This document shows, one piece after another, positions 4,466 to 47,809 of a stretch of 64,000 nucleotides of DNA. Numbering within the stretch: position 1 is the stretch's first letter; every line of letters begins with the position of its first letter. Made by a program: the position numbers and the translations under genes. The DNA is from Terriglobia bacterium (lineage in GTDB: Bacteria > Acidobacteriota > Terriglobia > Terriglobales > Acidobacteriaceae): positions 62,001-126,000 of the forward strand of contig JAIQFD010000005.1 of NCBI GenBank assembly GCA_020073495.1, read 5' to 3'. The notes beneath the pieces were generated by a model. The model was not told the origin of the DNA, did not search any database, and saw only the letters and a list, made by a program, of their open reading frames with translations.

Positions 4466-7291
4466 TTAGAACGTCGTGGCTACGCTGAAGCGGAAGGTGT
4501 GGCGCGGCTCCACCAATTTGAATCCGGAGGCCTGCTGCTGCAACTGCTGGAAGGTAAAATCCCCGGCTCCGCCCGGCGGAAACATGGCCCGGGTGATGAG
4601 GAACGGCGGCGTCGCGATCGAGTTCAGGATGAGCGGGTTCCACGCGTAGTAAACGCGCATCGGTGCATTGACCACCGGCATCAAGACCTGGAATTCCAGG
4701 CCCGTGGACATCCGCGGGACGTAATTCGAGCCGCTGACGATCTTGAGGTCAGGTGCGAATGGGCCCAATAGCGTGCCCCCAGCGCAACTGAAGGTGACGT
4801 CCAGAGAGGGGCAGCCGAACGCCGTCGTGTTCAGGGCTGTCAGCGTCTGGTCGGAGACGCGCAACTGCGAGTTACGCAGGATCATGTTCATTCCGAAGTC
4901 CATGAAGGCGGCGAGCGTCACCGGGCCGGCGATGGGCATACGGTATTCGACGTTCGAGATGACGCTGGTGTCGCCGCCAGGAATCACGATGCTGTAGATG
5001 GGTACGGGCACCGTGACCGCACCCAGGCGCGGGTTGCTGGGGTCCCGCAGAACGGCGGTGCCGTCTGGGTTCGTCAGGTTCACGTTGAAATTCTGGACGA
5101 TGAAGCCGTACGGGCCGACCGTGCGGATGTCGAAACCGCGGAGGTCGTTGTCGCCCCCCAGATACATGCGCTGGAATGGCGGGGCCACAAGGCCGCCGAA
5201 CCCCGTGATAAACGAGCCTTGGACGCGGAAGCCCAAGGTCTGGTGTCCGTCGGAATTCGGCTTGATCCCCTTCATGGGGGTCCAACGCTTGAATTCGACG
5301 ACCGGGCGGATGTCGCGCACGTTGCCACCCAGTCCGGCGATCTCGGTCGCCAGGTACACGCTCCGACCCCGGGTGGGGTGCATCGGGCTGTCAATGGTGC
5401 TGAAGGAGAACGACGGGATCACCTTGCTGGTGATCACGCCTTCCAGGGCGTTCGGTCCGGAAAAGCCGCGGAAGGCGAGGTTCTCGAACAACTGCTGCGA
5501 CGCGGTGCTGAACGTGGTCACCGACGTGCGGTCGATCGAGTATGTGATACCTATGCGCTTGAACGACCGCCGGAGCGCGTAGCTGGCGCTGGCGGTGAAG
5601 CCGGTGCTGGACTGGCTGTAGTCCTGGAGAGTGTCGAGCACATTCTGGGGCAGGTTGACCTGCTGGCCAGACGCCAGGCTCACCTGCTGTGCCTGGTTGT
5701 ATTCGTACTTGGTGCTGAACACCGTGAATCCCAGTTGGAGCGGGCGATCGAAGGCGTACGGCTCGGTGAAGCCGAAGGTGAGGTTCCGCTGATAGCTACC
5801 AATATTGAAGTCCACGGTCAACGTCTCACCCAGTCCCAGGAAGTTGTTCGTCTGGTAGTTGAGGCCGACGAACGACCCGGCCAGACCGCTGACGCCACCG
5901 GTGAGACCGATCGAGTTCTTGCCCTTTTCCTTGACCTTGAGCGTGATATCGACCGTGCTTTCCTGGTTGTTCTGCTTGATGTCGGAATCCTGGTCGGGTT
6001 TGAGCGGCTCGAAGTAATTGAGCTGATTGAGGCGGAGGAGGCTCAGCTCCCAGTACTTGCTGTTGTAAACGTTGCCTTCCTCCAGGGCCAATTCGCGGCG
6101 GATGACCTTGTCGCGCGTCGTGGTATTGCCCTGGAACTCGATGCGGCGCACGTAGAAAGGCTTGCCCTCATCGACGTCGATGTCCAGCGTGATCAGGTGC
6201 TTTTCGTCGTCGATCTTGGTGTCGGGAACAGCCGTGAAGTTGATGTAGCCAAGTTCACCGTAGGCATCGCGCAGGTTTTTCAGGCCCTTGCGCACCATGG
6301 TGGTGTTGAATAGTTCTCCGTCCTTCATGGGGAAGAGGCGGCGAAGCAAGGCAACGCTGGTCACCGCCTTGTTGTTCTTGAAGGTGATGGCCGCCAGGCG
6401 GAAGCGCGCCCCTTCCTCGACCGGAATCGTGATGTCCACGGCCTTGCCGCCACCTTTGCGAAAAAGCCAGGGGAAGCCGGGAGCGGTGTCGCGGATCTGA
6501 GTCTTGGGGTCCTGCACCAGGGCCTTGAAAAAGCCCTTCTGCTGGTAGGCGTCGCGGACACGTTCGGTGTCCTCCTGGAGCTTGGTCGCGTCGTAGGTGC
6601 GGGAAAAGACGTTTTCCAGGATGATCGAGTGCGGGATCCCGATCGGCTTCAGGTTCTTCATCGCGTCCCGCAAGTAACGGCCGCTCACCGTGTTGTTGCC
6701 TTCGAAGCTGATCTTCCCGACCTTCACCTTGGGGCCTTCGTTGACGATGAAGGTCACGGCCACGGCCGCGGGCGGGATGGGTCTCACTTCCGGTCGGATG
6801 GTCGCGAACTGGCGGCCGTGCTCGGACAGGAGCTCTTTGAGCACGACCTCGGCCCTTTTGATCTTGGTGGGATCGTACTGGTTCTCGACCGTCAGCCCGA
6901 CCTTGCGCTCCTTGAAGCGATCGAGCACGTCGCTCTGCGAGACCGAGTTCAGACCCTGGTAATTGATTTCGCGGATGGTGGGCTTCTCTTTGACGTAGAA
7001 GTGGATGATGTAGCCCTTGGCGCTGTCCTCGCGCTCGATCCGCAGGTCCTCGAAGTACCCGGTATTCCACAGGGAGGCGAAATCGCGCTGCAGAGCGGCT
7101 TCGTCATAGACGTCGCCTTCGCGGGTGAAAATGCGGGCGCGCATGGTCTCGGCCGGGATGCGCCGGTTGCCGTGGATGCGGATTCCCTCGATGAGCTGTT
7201 GCTGGGATACGGAAGTCCCCGTCAGCAGAAACAGGAGGCCGAGCACTGCCAGAAGCAGGGATTTGGTGGCGCCCGTGGGAATCACAGGCAC
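4466..7291 (-). CDS. bamA: Outer-membrane protein assembly factor BamA
   Basis: 941 residues: signal peptide, five POTRA-type repeats (roughly residues 30-430, including IRIHGNRRIPAETMRARI and VRRIEFQGNTTTRDKVIRREL), then a 16-strand Omp85 barrel. The barrel carries the conserved FQRMYLGGDNDLRGF motif (VRGF-like loop) and ends in Phe, as outer-membrane barrels do. BamA inserts beta-barrel proteins into the outer membrane. It is longer than the E. coli protein (about 810) mainly through barrel loops. skp follows on the same strand after about 180 nt but has its own promoter. Confidence 0.96.
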   Translation of the reverse strand: MPVIPTGATKSLLLAVLGLLFLLTGTSVSQQQLIEGIRIHGNRRIPAETMRARIFTREGDVYDEAALQRDFASLWNTGYFEDLRIEREDSAKGYIIHFYVKEKPTIREINYQGLNSVSQSDVLDRFKERKVGLTVENQYDPTKIKRAEVVLKELLSEHGRQFATIRPEVRPIPPAAVAVTFIVNEGPKVKVGKISFEGNNTVSGRYLRDAMKNLKPIGIPHSIILENVFSRTYDATKLQEDTERVRDAYQQKGFFKALVQDPKTQIRDTAPGFPWLFRKGGGKAVDITIPVEEGARFRLAAITFKNNKAVTSVALLRRLFPMKDGELFNTTMVRKGLKNLRDAYGELGYINFTAVPDTKIDDEKHLITLDIDVDEGKPFYVRRIEFQGNTTTRDKVIRRELALEEGNVYNSKYWELSLLRLNQLNYFEPLKPDQDSDIKQNNQESTVDITLKVKEKGKNSIGLTGGVSGLAGSFVGLNYQTNNFLGLGETLTVDFNIGSYQRNLTFGFTEPYAFDRPLQLGFTVFSTKYEYNQAQQVSLASGQQVNLPQNVLDTLQDYSQSSTGFTASASYALRRSFKRIGITYSIDRTSVTTFSTASQQLFENLAFRGFSGPNALEGVITSKVIPSFSFSTIDSPMHPTRGRSVYLATEIAGLGGNVRDIRPVVEFKRWTPMKGIKPNSDGHQTLGFRVQGSFITGFGGLVAPPFQRMYLGGDNDLRGFDIRTVGPYGFIVQNFNVNLTNPDGTAVLRDPSNPRLGAVTVPVPIYSIVIPGGDTSVISNVEYRMPIAGPVTLAAFMDFGMNMILRNSQLRVSDQTLTALNTTAFGCPSLDVTFSCAGGTLLGPFAPDLKIVSGSNYVPRMSTGLEFQVLMPVVNAPMRVYYAWNPLILNSIATPPFLITRAMFPPGGAGDFTFQQLQQQASGFKLVEPRHTFRFSVATTF

Positions 7292-44317: not shown

Positions 44318-45520
44318 ATGACAATCAAAGAGACGTTCCTCAGCGCCCTTCGGCGCCTGGGCGGGAGTGTGTCCGACAAGCGGCGCACGCTCGCGCTGCC
44401 CAGCATCCTGAACACCTACGCGCCGCGCGGGACCAACGGCGCACTGCCCAAGTGCACGCCGTATAACCTACGCCGGTTCGCGGAGACACCCATTGCGCGC
44501 AAGGCGATCAACACCATCAAGGACCGCGTCGCTGGGATGCGCTGGCGGGTGCAGCCAAAGAACGGCCGCGCGCTCGAGGAGCTTTCCGAGGGCGTGGAGC
44601 GCATCCGCGTGCTTACCGACAACCTCGACGCGCCCAATTCCGACGACAGCTTCCGCTCGCTCGCCGAGCAGGTCTTGGAGGACGTGATCGTCGGCGGCTT
44701 CGGCGCCATCGAGGTGCAGCGAACGGAGGAGCCTACGCGCCCGCTGGTGCTGTGGCCGGTGGACGGCTCCACCATCCGCATGCGCGCGGATTGGGACGGC
44801 CGTCCCGACTCGCCGCGCTACGTGCAGGACACCGGCCGCTTCGGGCCCGAGTCGCGCATCGCACTCAACGACAACGAACTCATCTACATCCGCCTGAACC
44901 CGCGCACCCACACGCCCTTCGGCCTGGGGCGACTGGAGGTGGCGTTCGAGACCATCAACGCCTTCCTGGGCGCGCACCGCTACGCCGCGCGGCTGGCGTC
45001 GAACTCGGTGGTGCAGTACGCGCTCTGGCTCCAGGACCTGACGCCGGCGCACCACGAGCGGCTCATCCGCTGGTGGCAGGACGAGATCGAGGGTACGGGC
45101 CGCGTGCCCATCCTCTCCGTCGAGCACAAGCCGGAGGTGCTGCGCTTCGGCGGCGGCACTGACGCCGACCTGCGCCTCTCCTGGCAGGAGTTCCTGCTGC
45201 GCGTGGTGGCCGACGCCTTCGACCTGCCGCCGCTCTTCCTCGGCCTGGAGCACGACGTCAACCGCTCCACCGCCGGCGAGCTCAGCGACCTGGCCTTCCG
45301 CCAGGCCATCGTGCCCACGGCGCGCCTGCTGGCCGAGCACCTGACGCGCGACGCCATCGGTAAGAAGCTCGGCTGGCACGATCTGGAATTCGTCTTCACC
45401 GACACCGATGTGCGCAACGAGCGCGAAGAGGCGGAGATCCAAGAGATCCTGCTGCGCAGCGGGGTGATGACCGTCAATGAAGTCCGCAGGCTTCGCGGAT
45501 TGCCCGAGCTCTCAATTTAA
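44318..45520 (+). CDS. Phage portal protein (HK97-like)
   Basis: 400 residues. The N-terminal part has NTIKDRVAGMRWRVQPKNG; the core has RSLAEQVLEDVIVGGFGAIEV, and a long stem/helix region ends with HDVNRSTAGELSDLAFRQAIVP. The last residues, VMTVNEVRRLRGLPEL, are standard for HK97/SPP1-type portals. Portals form the twelve-fold vertex through which DNA is packaged. The gene should follow terL directly; instead about 2.1 kb with the kinase cassette intervenes. Confidence 0.88.
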   Translation: MTIKETFLSALRRLGGSVSDKRRTLALPSILNTYAPRGTNGALPKCTPYNLRRFAETPIARKAINTIKDRVAGMRWRVQPKNGRALEELSEGVERIRVLTDNLDAPNSDDSFRSLAEQVLEDVIVGGFGAIEVQRTEEPTRPLVLWPVDGSTIRMRADWDGRPDSPRYVQDTGRFGPESRIALNDNELIYIRLNPRTHTPFGLGRLEVAFETINAFLGAHRYAARLASNSVVQYALWLQDLTPAHHERLIRWWQDEIEGTGRVPILSVEHKPEVLRFGGGTDADLRLSWQEFLLRVVADAFDLPPLFLGLEHDVNRSTAGELSDLAFRQAIVPTARLLAEHLTRDAIGKKLGWHDLEFVFTDTDVRNEREEAEIQEILLRSGVMTVNEVRRLRGLPELSI

Positions 45521-45585
45521 CCGCCGAGATCGCAGAGAACGCCGAGGCAACAGATTCCTCTCTGCGGTCTCGGCGTTCTCGGCGG
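45521..45585. repeat. CCGCCGAGA palindromic intergenic element
   Basis: It starts on the base after the portal stop. Left arm CCGCCGAG (45521-45528) pairs with CTCGGCGG (45578-45585), and the interior reuses the words GCAGAGAACGC and CTCTGCGGTCTCGGCG. It fills most of the gap before the protease gene. Confidence 0.6.
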
Positions 45586-45603: not shown

Positions 45604-46248
45604 ATGACCCTTGAACTCGAATCCATGGCGATCGAGATGCCGCCGGTGTCTCGACACCCCAATCGTCTGCCCTTCCGCGGCGTGCTGACGCTGGTGGACA
45701 CGCCCAGCGACCGCCCGCCGTCGGGCGCGCGTGACCATCGTGTGCTGCTCACCCGACAGGCCGCCGAACGCGCCCTGGCATCGCTGCTGGGCATGGCCCT
45801 CGACTACACCCCGGCACTCGACGCGCATGACGCGAAGCGAAAAGTAGGCATCATCACTTCGGCGGAGGTCATTGAGTTGTCAGTTGCCAGTTGCCAGTTG
45901 GCAGGCAGGCGATCTGACAACCGACAACTGACAACCGGCAACTGCATTGCCGTCTCCGGCTACATCTTCGCCAAAGATTTTCCCGAAGTGGTCCGCGAGC
46001 TGCGCTGGAACCCGGCGCGGCTGGGAATGTCGTATGAACTCTCCGACGCCACCGTGCAGGACGTGAACGCCCGCATCTGGACGCTCACCGACGTCACCTT
46101 CACCGGGGCGGCGATCCTCCGCCGCGACAAAGCCGCGTACTCGCAGACCTGGATCGAACTCGAATCCAGCGTGGGCGCGGGTCTTCGATCCGCGCACAGC
46201 GACCCTGCACGTCGCCTGGACTGGTCAGGGACCCGTCCTCATGTTTAA
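45604..46248 (+). CDS. Capsid maturation protease-like protein with an in-frame repeat insertion
   Basis: 214 residues. The segments ALDYTPALDAHDAKRKVGIIT, IAVSGYIFAKDFPE, LGMSYEL and LTDVTFTGAAIL are arranged as in prohead proteases encoded between portal and major capsid. Residues about 92-114 (beginning LSVASCQLAGRR) are encoded by a period-7 repeat (45877-45944) like those in nearby gaps, so they look inserted between two conserved strands. The frame is kept; activity may not be. No Shine-Dalgarno is obvious. Confidence 0.65.
   Translation: MTLELESMAIEMPPVSRHPNRLPFRGVLTLVDTPSDRPPSGARDHRVLLTRQAAERALASLLGMALDYTPALDAHDAKRKVGIITSAEVIELSVASCQLAGRRSDNRQLTTGNCIAVSGYIFAKDFPEVVRELRWNPARLGMSYELSDATVQDVNARIWTLTDVTFTGAAILRRDKAAYSQTWIELESSVGAGLRSAHSDPARRLDWSGTRPHV
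45877..45944. repeat. Heptanucleotide inverted element inside the protease gene
   Basis: Four words TTGTCAG, TTGCCAG, TTGCCAG, TTGGCAG, a 9-nt turn, then CTGACAA, CCGACAA, CTGACAA, CCGGCAA. The two halves are complementary, so the element can fold into a long imperfect hairpin. It lies wholly inside an open frame. Confidence 0.75.
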
Positions 46249-46278: not shown

Positions 46279-46680
46279 ATGAACGAACACCAACTCACCG
46301 AACTCATCGACCGCCTGGCGGTGGCCGCGGAGGCGATGGAACGCACCTTCGCCGCCGTCCACGCCCAGCATGACGAGTTGTCGGTCAAGATCGACCGCAT
46401 CGTCGCCTGCGTGGACGAGGCCGCCGAGCGCACCCAACTCGAGGCTCGCATCGCCGACCTGGAGCGCGCCAACACCGAATTGAAGGCGCAGCTCGAACGC
46501 AAGCCGGTCGAGCGCAAGACCCTGCCGCCTCTGGTCACCGCGCTGCTCTCCAAGAACGGCATCGAGGACGTGCACGCCAGGATCGACAGCGCGCTGCTCG
46601 ACAAGGCGCTGGCCTCGCTTGCCGTGGATCAGCGCATCGCCGTCAAGGCGCAGATGGCGGAGGCAGGGCTGATCGAGTAG
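46279..46680 (+). CDS. Coiled-coil protein, possible capsid scaffold
   Basis: 133 residues. A helical N-terminal two-thirds has heptad-like spacing (ELIDRLAVAAEAMERTFAAV, then AERTQLEARIADLERANTEL), a KxxVERK linker, and a C-terminal helical domain. The gene lies between protease and major capsid, where scaffold genes normally sit. GGAG stands 6-7 nt before the ATG. It has no sequence similarity that I recognise; the scaffold assignment rests on position and predicted structure. Confidence 0.55.
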   Translation: MNEHQLTELIDRLAVAAEAMERTFAAVHAQHDELSVKIDRIVACVDEAAERTQLEARIADLERANTELKAQLERKPVERKTLPPLVTALLSKNGIEDVHARIDSALLDKALASLAVDQRIAVKAQMAEAGLIE

Positions 46681-46711
46681 CCGTCCGTCGCCTCTCGGCA
46701 GTCGTCAGCGA

Positions 46712-46797
46712 GCGATTAGCGATTAGCGATTGGCGTTTAGCACCTGAACTGGACGGCTAAACGCTAACGGCTAATCGCTAATTGCTTTTGGCTAGCG
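46712..46797. repeat. Heptanucleotide inverted element (GCGATTA type) before the capsid gene
   Basis: GCGATTA, GCGATTA, GCGATTG, GCGTTTA, GCACCTG, a short turn, then GCTAAAC, GCTAACG, GCTAATC, GCTAATT. The two halves are inverse complements of the same word family, so the gap can fold. It ends about 40 nt before the capsid ATG. Confidence 0.78.
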
Positions 46798-46837: not shown

Positions 46838-47809
46838 ATGACCGCACAATTCCTCGACATCCACGCGGCCGCGGACTATCTCGGCCCCGGCGCGGTGGAG
46901 ATCAATCGGTACCAATCCGAGATCACCGACATCGTGAAGCGGCGCGGCGTATTCGGGCAGCGCATCCGGCAGGTGCCGGCGACCGGACATCCGTCGCGCT
47001 TCTTCGAACAGACCGCGATCACCTCGCCGACGGCGGCGCAAGCCTTCACCGACCCGCGCAACATCGTGGCCGTGGTCGGCTCGCCGACACGCGTCGAGCG
47101 CAGCGTGCCGCTCAAGGCGCTGGTCTCGCAGCTCAACTACAACCTCTTCGACACCGAGGTGGGCGCGCAGCAATCGCAGTTCGCCTTCCTCCAGGCCAAG
47201 GACCTGGCCGACGCGGTCGAGGGCCTGCTGCGCACCCACGACGTCGCGCTGTGGAACGGCAACGACACGTCGCTGGCCACGCCGACCACGCCGCAATACT
47301 TCGGCGTGACCGGGCAGATCGCGGCCGGCGGCAACACCGACACCATCGGCGTCGCCGAGTCGATCGTGGATGGGCTGAAGGAGATCGTCGCACTGATGGT
47401 CGCCAATAGCTCCTACGAGGTGCGCCCCACCGCCATCTACTCCAACCCCGTGCTGCTCGATCTGATCGACCGCGAGATGAAGGACCAGTTCAACGTGGTG
47501 CTGTCTTCCACCGAGGTCGCGGGCGGGCTGCGCGTGAAGACGCTCTCCACGCAGGCGGGCGAGCTGCCGCTGATCCCCGAGTGGGCGCTGAGTTACACCG
47601 GCACGCCCGGCTCCGGCTCGGCGCAACTGCCCTGCTACATCGTGAGCGAGCCCATGATCGAGTACCACTGGCTCACCGACCCCAACCCGCGCGTCTTCAA
47701 GCTGGGCACGACCGCAGCTCTGGGACAGCAGATGGTGATCGTGAAGTTTGGCGCCGTGGTGGTCAAGGGCGCCGGCTACGCGCACTACAAGGTGACCGTC
47801 ACCCGGTAA
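46838..47809 (+). CDS. Major capsid protein (HK97-fold inferred)
   Basis: 323 residues, with AAAGGA before the ATG. The long N-terminal helix region, VPLKALVSQLNYNLFDTEVG, the central AVEGLLRTHDVALWNGND and a C-terminal beta-rich part (NPRVFKLGTTAALGQQMVIVKFGAV split by turns) fit major capsid proteins of tailed phages. Length and position, after protease and scaffold and before connectors, match. The shell of the particle would be made of this protein. Confidence 0.72.
   Translation: MTAQFLDIHAAADYLGPGAVEINRYQSEITDIVKRRGVFGQRIRQVPATGHPSRFFEQTAITSPTAAQAFTDPRNIVAVVGSPTRVERSVPLKALVSQLNYNLFDTEVGAQQSQFAFLQAKDLADAVEGLLRTHDVALWNGNDTSLATPTTPQYFGVTGQIAAGGNTDTIGVAESIVDGLKEIVALMVANSSYEVRPTAIYSNPVLLDLIDREMKDQFNVVLSSTEVAGGLRVKTLSTQAGELPLIPEWALSYTGTPGSGSAQLPCYIVSEPMIEYHWLTDPNPRVFKLGTTAALGQQMVIVKFGAVVVKGAGYAHYKVTVTR

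Follow-up and report, generated by a model that had tools for sequence, protein, structure and literature searches.

The window, that is the whole stretch of 64 000 nt analysed here, contains a putative capsid-assembly protease gene that is preceded by a portal gene recognized by its Pfam domain and followed, further downstream, by a gene in the capsid position for which neither a Pfam nor a PHROG match was found (Table 1). The protease-like ORF itself gave no Pfam or PHROG profile match and was identified by fold. Its best counterparts were T4 gp21 (5jbl_B; VIA Z 11.5, rmsd 3.2, 127 residues) and the assemblins, the capsid proteases of herpesviruses (Z mostly 8–10); Foldseek alone placed matches of the T4 gp21/assemblin fold at ranks 1 and 2 (E 0.029, prob 0.93). 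A search of a viral model library led to 126 matches at E ≤ 0.001, and several of the 50 listed are named prohead protease (E 8e-9 and weaker). On this basis the host protein is predicted to have the capsid-assembly-protease fold (T4 gp21/herpes assemblin). H75 and S143, which we take to be the candidate catalytic His/Ser pair of such a protease, are invariant across 48 aligned rows. The gene is present in 221 out of 398 family genomes (E ≤ 1e-20), and no relative was found in the phage record collection; its wide presence hints at a vertically kept locus, possibly a domesticated phage or gene-transfer-agent locus. The gap between the portal and protease genes (45520–45585) holds a palindrome of period ~9 (CTCGGCGGT-like), of which G299, a second genome of the genus, has a partial copy in a longer gap.

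Table 1. Features in and around the protease-like gene (window positions)
Feature	Position	Strand	Basis
Phage portal protein gene	44318..45520	+	Pfam PF04860, E 5.5e-45; PHROG portal
Capsid-assembly (prohead) protease-like gene, host of the insert, 214 aa	45604..46248	+	ORF, fold match, viral model library
Codons of predicted beta strand 80-92, 5' of the insert	45841..45879	+	Structure model
Left arm, ~4 period-7 units AGTTGCC / NCAGTTG	45875..45904	+	Tandem Repeats Finder
Inter-arm spacer, 9 bases	45905..45913	.	Gap between arrays
Right arm, ~4 inverted period-7 units GACAACC / CAACTGN	45914..45944	+	Tandem Repeats Finder; pairing from DNA fold
Codons of predicted beta strand 112-122, 3' of the insert	45937..45969	+	Structure model
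Coiled-coil-like protein, usual scaffold position (inferred)	46279..46680	+	Matches weak, none reaching Pfam thresholds
Intergenic hairpin of TTAGCNN heptamers, of one class with the protease element	46706..46787	.	Tandem Repeats Finder; after the scaffold-position gene
Gene at usual major-capsid position (inferred from place alone)	46838..47809	+	No Pfam or PHROG match

A period-7 quasi-palindrome lies in frame within this capsid protease-like gene of a soil bacterium (45871–45947). Tandem Repeats Finder reported period-7 arrays at 45875–45904 and 45916–45942, and a period-14 array at 45914–45944. Over the 78 bases from 45870 to 45947, the proportion of matches at distance 7 is 0.63, which none of 5000 dinucleotide shuffles reached; the top 75-base window in the rest of the gene attains 0.37. 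The two arms are inverted, and the segment 45870–45950, folded as single-stranded DNA, gave −19 kcal/mol (z −3.33; 1 of 200 shuffles was equally good). Arms and spacer together span ~70 bp, and the net gain is 63 nt (21 codons), with the reading frame intact. The initial annotation, which had described an in-frame period-7 element at 45877–45944, is thereby borne out by the repeat finder, the shuffles and the uninterrupted 214-codon ORF; its coordinates are correct (residue 92 begins at 45877), the element running a few bases beyond them at each side. It had also suggested looking for an exposed loop in a structure prediction, and the structure model (mean pLDDT 86.1 for the whole protein) places the insert in a low-confidence loop between strands 80–92 and 112–122: mean pLDDT is 66 and 62 for residues 91–100 and 101–110, versus 97 and 94 for the flanking strand blocks. 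The tetranucleotide GTAG is absent from both strands of 45865–45950; CGTC sits six bases past the right arm, within codons of the following strand. A candidate target-site duplication, CATTG, present on both sides of the element, was dropped because its size misfits the 63-nt gain and because it is missing in G299.

If the segment is an insertion, homologues should lack it and keep the flanking residues contiguous, as the initial annotation anticipated. The search of the class gave matches in 61 of 299 genomes. For 56 of them two pieces were listed, and the anticipated arrangement was found in 51 of these 56, the flanks adjoining with a gap of −3 to 17 nt; relative to the window, the net number of missing residues is 21 in 50 matches and 21.3 in one. 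In the remaining five, the second piece starts beyond a second variable loop. At the turn itself the window protein reads SAEVIE...NCIAVS and its nearest insert-free relative, L042, reads SAEIVNGRLEVG. Anchors allowed the length of the turn to be measured in 75 of the 78 loci, which come from genomes and viral contigs (three have no second anchor); it is 12 residues in 55 of them, as against 33 in the window gene, and longer (17–46 residues) in the other 20, counts that include near-identical viral and genome loci and that are biased towards the window's own relatives, since the fetched loci are the best matches. These alignments give good support to the view that the segment is a derived insertion and not native. 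The opposite outcome named in the initial annotation, an unrelated native segment of equal length in homologues, is in part realized: ten loci have loops of 33–46 residues. Repeats, which belong to four unrelated kinds, make up at least part of nine of these loops; the 38-residue loop of L077 has none. The turn is therefore permissive and length-variable, which had not been foreseen.

The nine repeat-containing loops suggest that this turn is a recurrent landing site in the family, occupied in relatives by other repeats of several unrelated kinds. Heptamer arrays fill it in the window gene (L001, genome G000), in its G299 counterpart (L054), in two loci of one genus (L002 and L003, both with the unit CAGTGG) and in L076 of genome G357; the period-7 match of each of these five loops was reached by 0 of 2000 shuffles, as opposed to 132 to 1842 of 2000 for the five remaining long loops. 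The loop of L075 holds an ACGGATC-type palindrome (z −6.0) and that of L004 a GTAGCGCC-type palindrome (z −4.9), the L004 insert being the only one that begins with GTAG. In L080 (z −3.8) and L083 (z −2.4) the loop is formed in part by a CCCACCCT palindrome, which is missing from the 22-residue loops of their genus-mates L078 and L081. In L077, neither the period-7 shuffles nor the hairpin analysis (z +0.75) revealed a repeat signature.

Hairpin strength was compared with that of same-length upstream windows from the same genes, eight near-copies being omitted. With fresh shuffles, z ≤ −2 was obtained for 7 of the 10 loops of at least 33 residues versus 4 of 50 control windows, the hairpin being weak or absent in the three others (L003, z −1.45; L076, −1.86; L077, +0.75); when all 22 loops of at least 17 residues are considered, the figures are 7/22 and 10/110 (Fisher p 0.009). 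A scan of 74 genes for ungapped inverted repeats, which left out four near-copies, counted five inside the turn and another five in other parts of the genes (3 in codon-shuffled genes); it was too blunt to tell the turn from the rest, and the same-length fold controls were then used.

Could the segment be simply a native, hypervariable loop whose repeat-like appearance is incidental? The spread of turn lengths (17–46 residues in 20/75 loci), the 38 repeat-free residues of L077 and a second loop nearby, which reaches 102 residues, are what such a loop would lead one to expect. This reading is nevertheless very improbable in the light of the period-7 match of 0.63 (0/5000 shuffles), the recognizable repeats in 9 of the 10 long loops and the recurrence of the same kind of array in intergenic gaps. 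Some of the variation in turn length is ordinary all the same, because L077 contains no recognizable repeat and there are loops of 17–22 residues without palindromes. The second loop, located before LGMSYE, measures 51–102 residues in L007, L023, L039, L053, L017 and L021. A CCCGGGTC/GACCCGGG palindrome was seen by eye in the second loop of L002; L003 is without that palindrome.

The occupants were also placed on a tree of 68 of the 78 rows, built with the loops removed (six near-copies and L032, L090, L092 and L094 were omitted). The five occupant labels need 6 changes on this tree and the heptamer label alone needs 3, only 1 of which is forced by starred branches; with 26 of the 65 inner branches left open and long branches meeting in places, the count of independent heptamer gains is uncertain.

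Some of the palindromes found in the turn are dispersed in genomes of the family. With the ACGGATC query, G352 gave 11 matches, which fall at 10 places (insert counted), and G221, G078 and G357 were matched as well, whereas G468 and G458 were not. The GTAGCGCC query matched G221 21 times, at 20 places (insert counted), and neither G468 nor G458. For the CCCACCCT pattern the number of places is 3 in G468 and 2 in G458 (insert counted), and for its reversed control 0. Occupation of the turn by unrelated dispersed palindromes favours landing of pre-existing elements.

The heptamer architecture, 7-base units arranged head to tail, is likewise over-represented in the window genome. In a 464-kb sample (twenty 20-kb stretches plus the window, out of 3.70 Mb), 20 period-7 arrays were detected with the strict setting and 32 with the relaxed one, compared with 5 in one Markov-simulated set (relaxed). 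Periods 5, 8, 10, 11 and 13 gave 0–5 arrays with either setting. With the relaxed setting, periods 6, 9, 12 and 15 were raised too (29, 34, 27 and 17 arrays, respectively), likely as an effect of codon periodicity because they are multiples of three, as was period 14 (23 arrays), which is twice seven. The period-7 arrays recur in intergenic gaps among other places, in keeping with the statement of the initial annotation that elements of this kind otherwise fill gaps. After merging, 36 arrays were listed in the 464 kb, some of them GC-rich and probably due to chance, and five are in coding-like frames: in the protease gene, in a UvrD/PcrA helicase gene, upstream of a recognized domain in two cases (NfeD and ribosomal S9) and in an EamA transporter gene, this last array being a probable chance hit. 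Among 37 arms that we picked from the relaxed-setting arrays (three GC-rich rows omitted), 32 have at least one open frame out of six, so that stop codons alone do not account for the rarity of intragenic arrays.

The helicase gene (L073:3839–6523, contig C4 of G000) has heptamer arms, CAGCCGTC... and CCAGCGAC..., ~55 bases apart at 5426–5547, and the corresponding linker in G299 (L100) holds arrays with another unit. It was rejected as a clean insertion: the linker is natively variable in relatives, as seen in the 11 of 14 loci for which it could be displayed, which makes it a second tolerated case.

G299 is the only other genome of the genus that was compared with G000. Its insert has the same start point and the same phase as that of the window; throughout the left arm, CAGTCG stands in place of CAGTTG, the right arm has the matching changes, and additional CAGTGG units are mixed with CAGTCG in one array. 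The insertion most likely predates the split between G000 and its sister species G299, a common origin that we infer from the two sequences. At orthologous sites occupied in both genomes (those that could be aligned, and not a random draw), the unit differs in 4 of 6: at the protease site, at L061:11922, at L074:8351 (two copies only in G299) and in the gap at 46706–46787, where G000 has TTAGCNN and a CAGTCG remnant and G299 a CAGTCG arm and a different palindrome. The unit is common to both at L061:19157 and L074:7653. Two inverted CTAGCNN arms at L061:6445 and 6894 (to 6933), bounding ~450 bases, have no counterpart in G299, and the L071 stretch, with its four arrays, found no match there. 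The array at L074:11219 was left out of the site comparison: it is GC-rich, was detected with the relaxed setting only, is missing from G299 and is likely due to chance. The concerted difference in unit at a fixed point favours rewriting of the array in place.

Rewriting could have gone further back, to the origin of the array, if a chance heptamer in the turn had been expanded by slippage and the inverted arm produced by template switching, with no incoming element. The unit difference that extends along both arms and the mixture of CAGTCG and CAGTGG in one G299 array would fit such a birth in situ, and template switching has been reported, in the parts of two papers available here, to create and maintain hairpins and to homogenize the arms of inverted repeats (PMC8794818, PMC8604942). 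We nonetheless consider it improbable: the ACGGATC and GTAGCGCC palindromes match dispersed families, and the recurrence of CAGTTGN and other units at many places in the genome would be left unexplained.

At the other extreme, every occupant, heptamers included, would be an independent landing of a miniature element of the REP or RPE type moved by a transposase, and the G299 unit would represent a second landing. Four unrelated kinds of palindrome in the turn, recurring in their own genomes, could be so explained, and G000 has eight Y1 transposase (RAYT-like) matches over the cut-off, including C5:192486 and C1:358919 (L113 and L114); GTAG-tagged REPs are hypothesized to be moved by Y1-type enzymes in the portion of PMC3733652 at hand. 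The flanks of two of the eight Y1 genes were read, however, and they hold other palindromes, those of the CCCAGGAC/GTCCTGGG type among them, but we saw no heptamer array there; the idea that Y1/RAYT genes end in heptamer arrays is accordingly unsupported in these two flanks. Moreover, the acidobacterial enzymes named in the available part of the same paper group with terminal inverted repeats and not with REPs (PMC3733652), no clear target duplication is present, and the arrays of G000 and G299 begin at one point and in one phase, as those from two landings would not necessarily do. Independent transposase-mediated landing of every occupant is, in our opinion, doubtful.

Landing followed by rewriting is the most likely course of events: we think it probable that a hairpin repeat landed in the protease turn and that its array was rewritten afterwards. 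A repeat of the non-coding type, two inverted runs of ~4 heptamers each, would have entered the beta-hairpin turn just after the conserved histidine strand, a turn that has been filled repeatedly in the family by differing kinds of repeat. After landing, the units would have been homogenized along and between the arms, most likely through slippage during replication combined with switches of template from one inverted arm to the other, or else through conversion in which copies elsewhere served as donors. Entry of an element into the gene and maintenance of that gene under selection are well supported; we infer the insertion agent and the mechanism of rewriting. The insert survives because the turn is exposed and permissive, because the unit leaves frames open in the orientation found and because the net length is a multiple of three. 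Having been filled several times by different repeats, the turn would be a hot spot of tolerance that small palindromic insertions, frequent as background events, keep sampling.

Between G000 and G299, both of which carry inserts, dN/dS is 0.13 before the loop and 0.16 after it; within the loop it is 0.54, a value obtained from a poor alignment. For L002 versus L003 it is 0.14 and 0.18 on the flanks and 0.28 in the loop. Such values indicate that the flanks are under purifying selection between species with inserts, and they lend support to the word 'tolerated' in the initial annotation; the decorated protease presumably works.

The G000/G299 comparison raises a broader, still tentative possibility, namely that the repeat class is defined by its architecture (a 7-base period and a hairpin) and not by its sequence, each copy staying where it is and retaining its shape while both arms change unit together, also when it lies within a gene. 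If so, one protein turn would have been given new peptides repeatedly by self-templating DNA. Whatever the mechanism, the locus offers natural before-and-after alleles of the conversion of non-coding palindromic repeats into protein at one codon-level site: the set comprises several repeat families and the short turn of most measured relatives, in an enzyme of known fold. The locus also allows a test of whether an enzyme moves hairpin repeats or their sequence is rewritten on the spot, between which the cited papers, in their available parts, do not decide for heptamer repeats.

In-frame palindromes in bacterial genes are already known, from the Rickettsia palindromic elements (RPEs), intragenic REPs and TAACTGA heptamers. 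RPEs are palindromic repeats found in frame inside unrelated genes (PMC10969869) and resemble the window element in being in-frame insertions within a coding gene. According to the available text, however, they are ~150 bp long and each of their families encodes a conserved peptide (PMC10969869), whereas the element here spans ~70 bp and units and peptides differ between species at its site. REPs tagged with GTAG or CGTC occur inside genes, that of the UvrD/REP helicase included, and in recB of two Xanthomonas species different REPs occupy nearly the same position, as described in the accessible part of PMC3733652. The L004 insert likewise starts with GTAG; the window element, in contrast, has no GTAG tag and is a heptamer array, and in the protease four kinds of repeat share one codon-level site of one gene.

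Two heptameric systems are closer in form. The TAACTGA repeats of Beggiatoaceae and cyanobacteria are 7-base tandem repeats which on the other strand read TCAGTTA and which in ORFs read LSVISYQ (PMC4679880); the insert described here has the closely similar unit NCAGTTG and reads LSVASCQ. The extracts of that paper at hand report 169 direct sets and one indirect set in the Guaymas genome, mostly just upstream of start codons; in genes these repeats are mainly at protein ends (PMC4679880), whereas the window element is mid-protein and has inverted arms, and several units occur here. The GGGAATC heptamers of Xanthomonas also form arrays capable of making stem-loops (70 convergent pairs in one genome and 75 in another), though they have one G-rich unit and are over-represented in non-coding regions, as far as the available text of PMC4692102 goes. 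The window unit, NCAGTTG / CAACTGN, is neither TAACTGA nor GGGAATC. Among the papers listed by searches of a limited library for such elements in Acidobacteria, for heptamers and for in-frame palindromes, none deals with this case. The protease element brings features of the known systems together. What appears to be new in comparison with these systems is the heptameric form of the hairpin, the capsid protease as a host, the position in the middle of the protein and the turnover of multiple repeat families at one turn.
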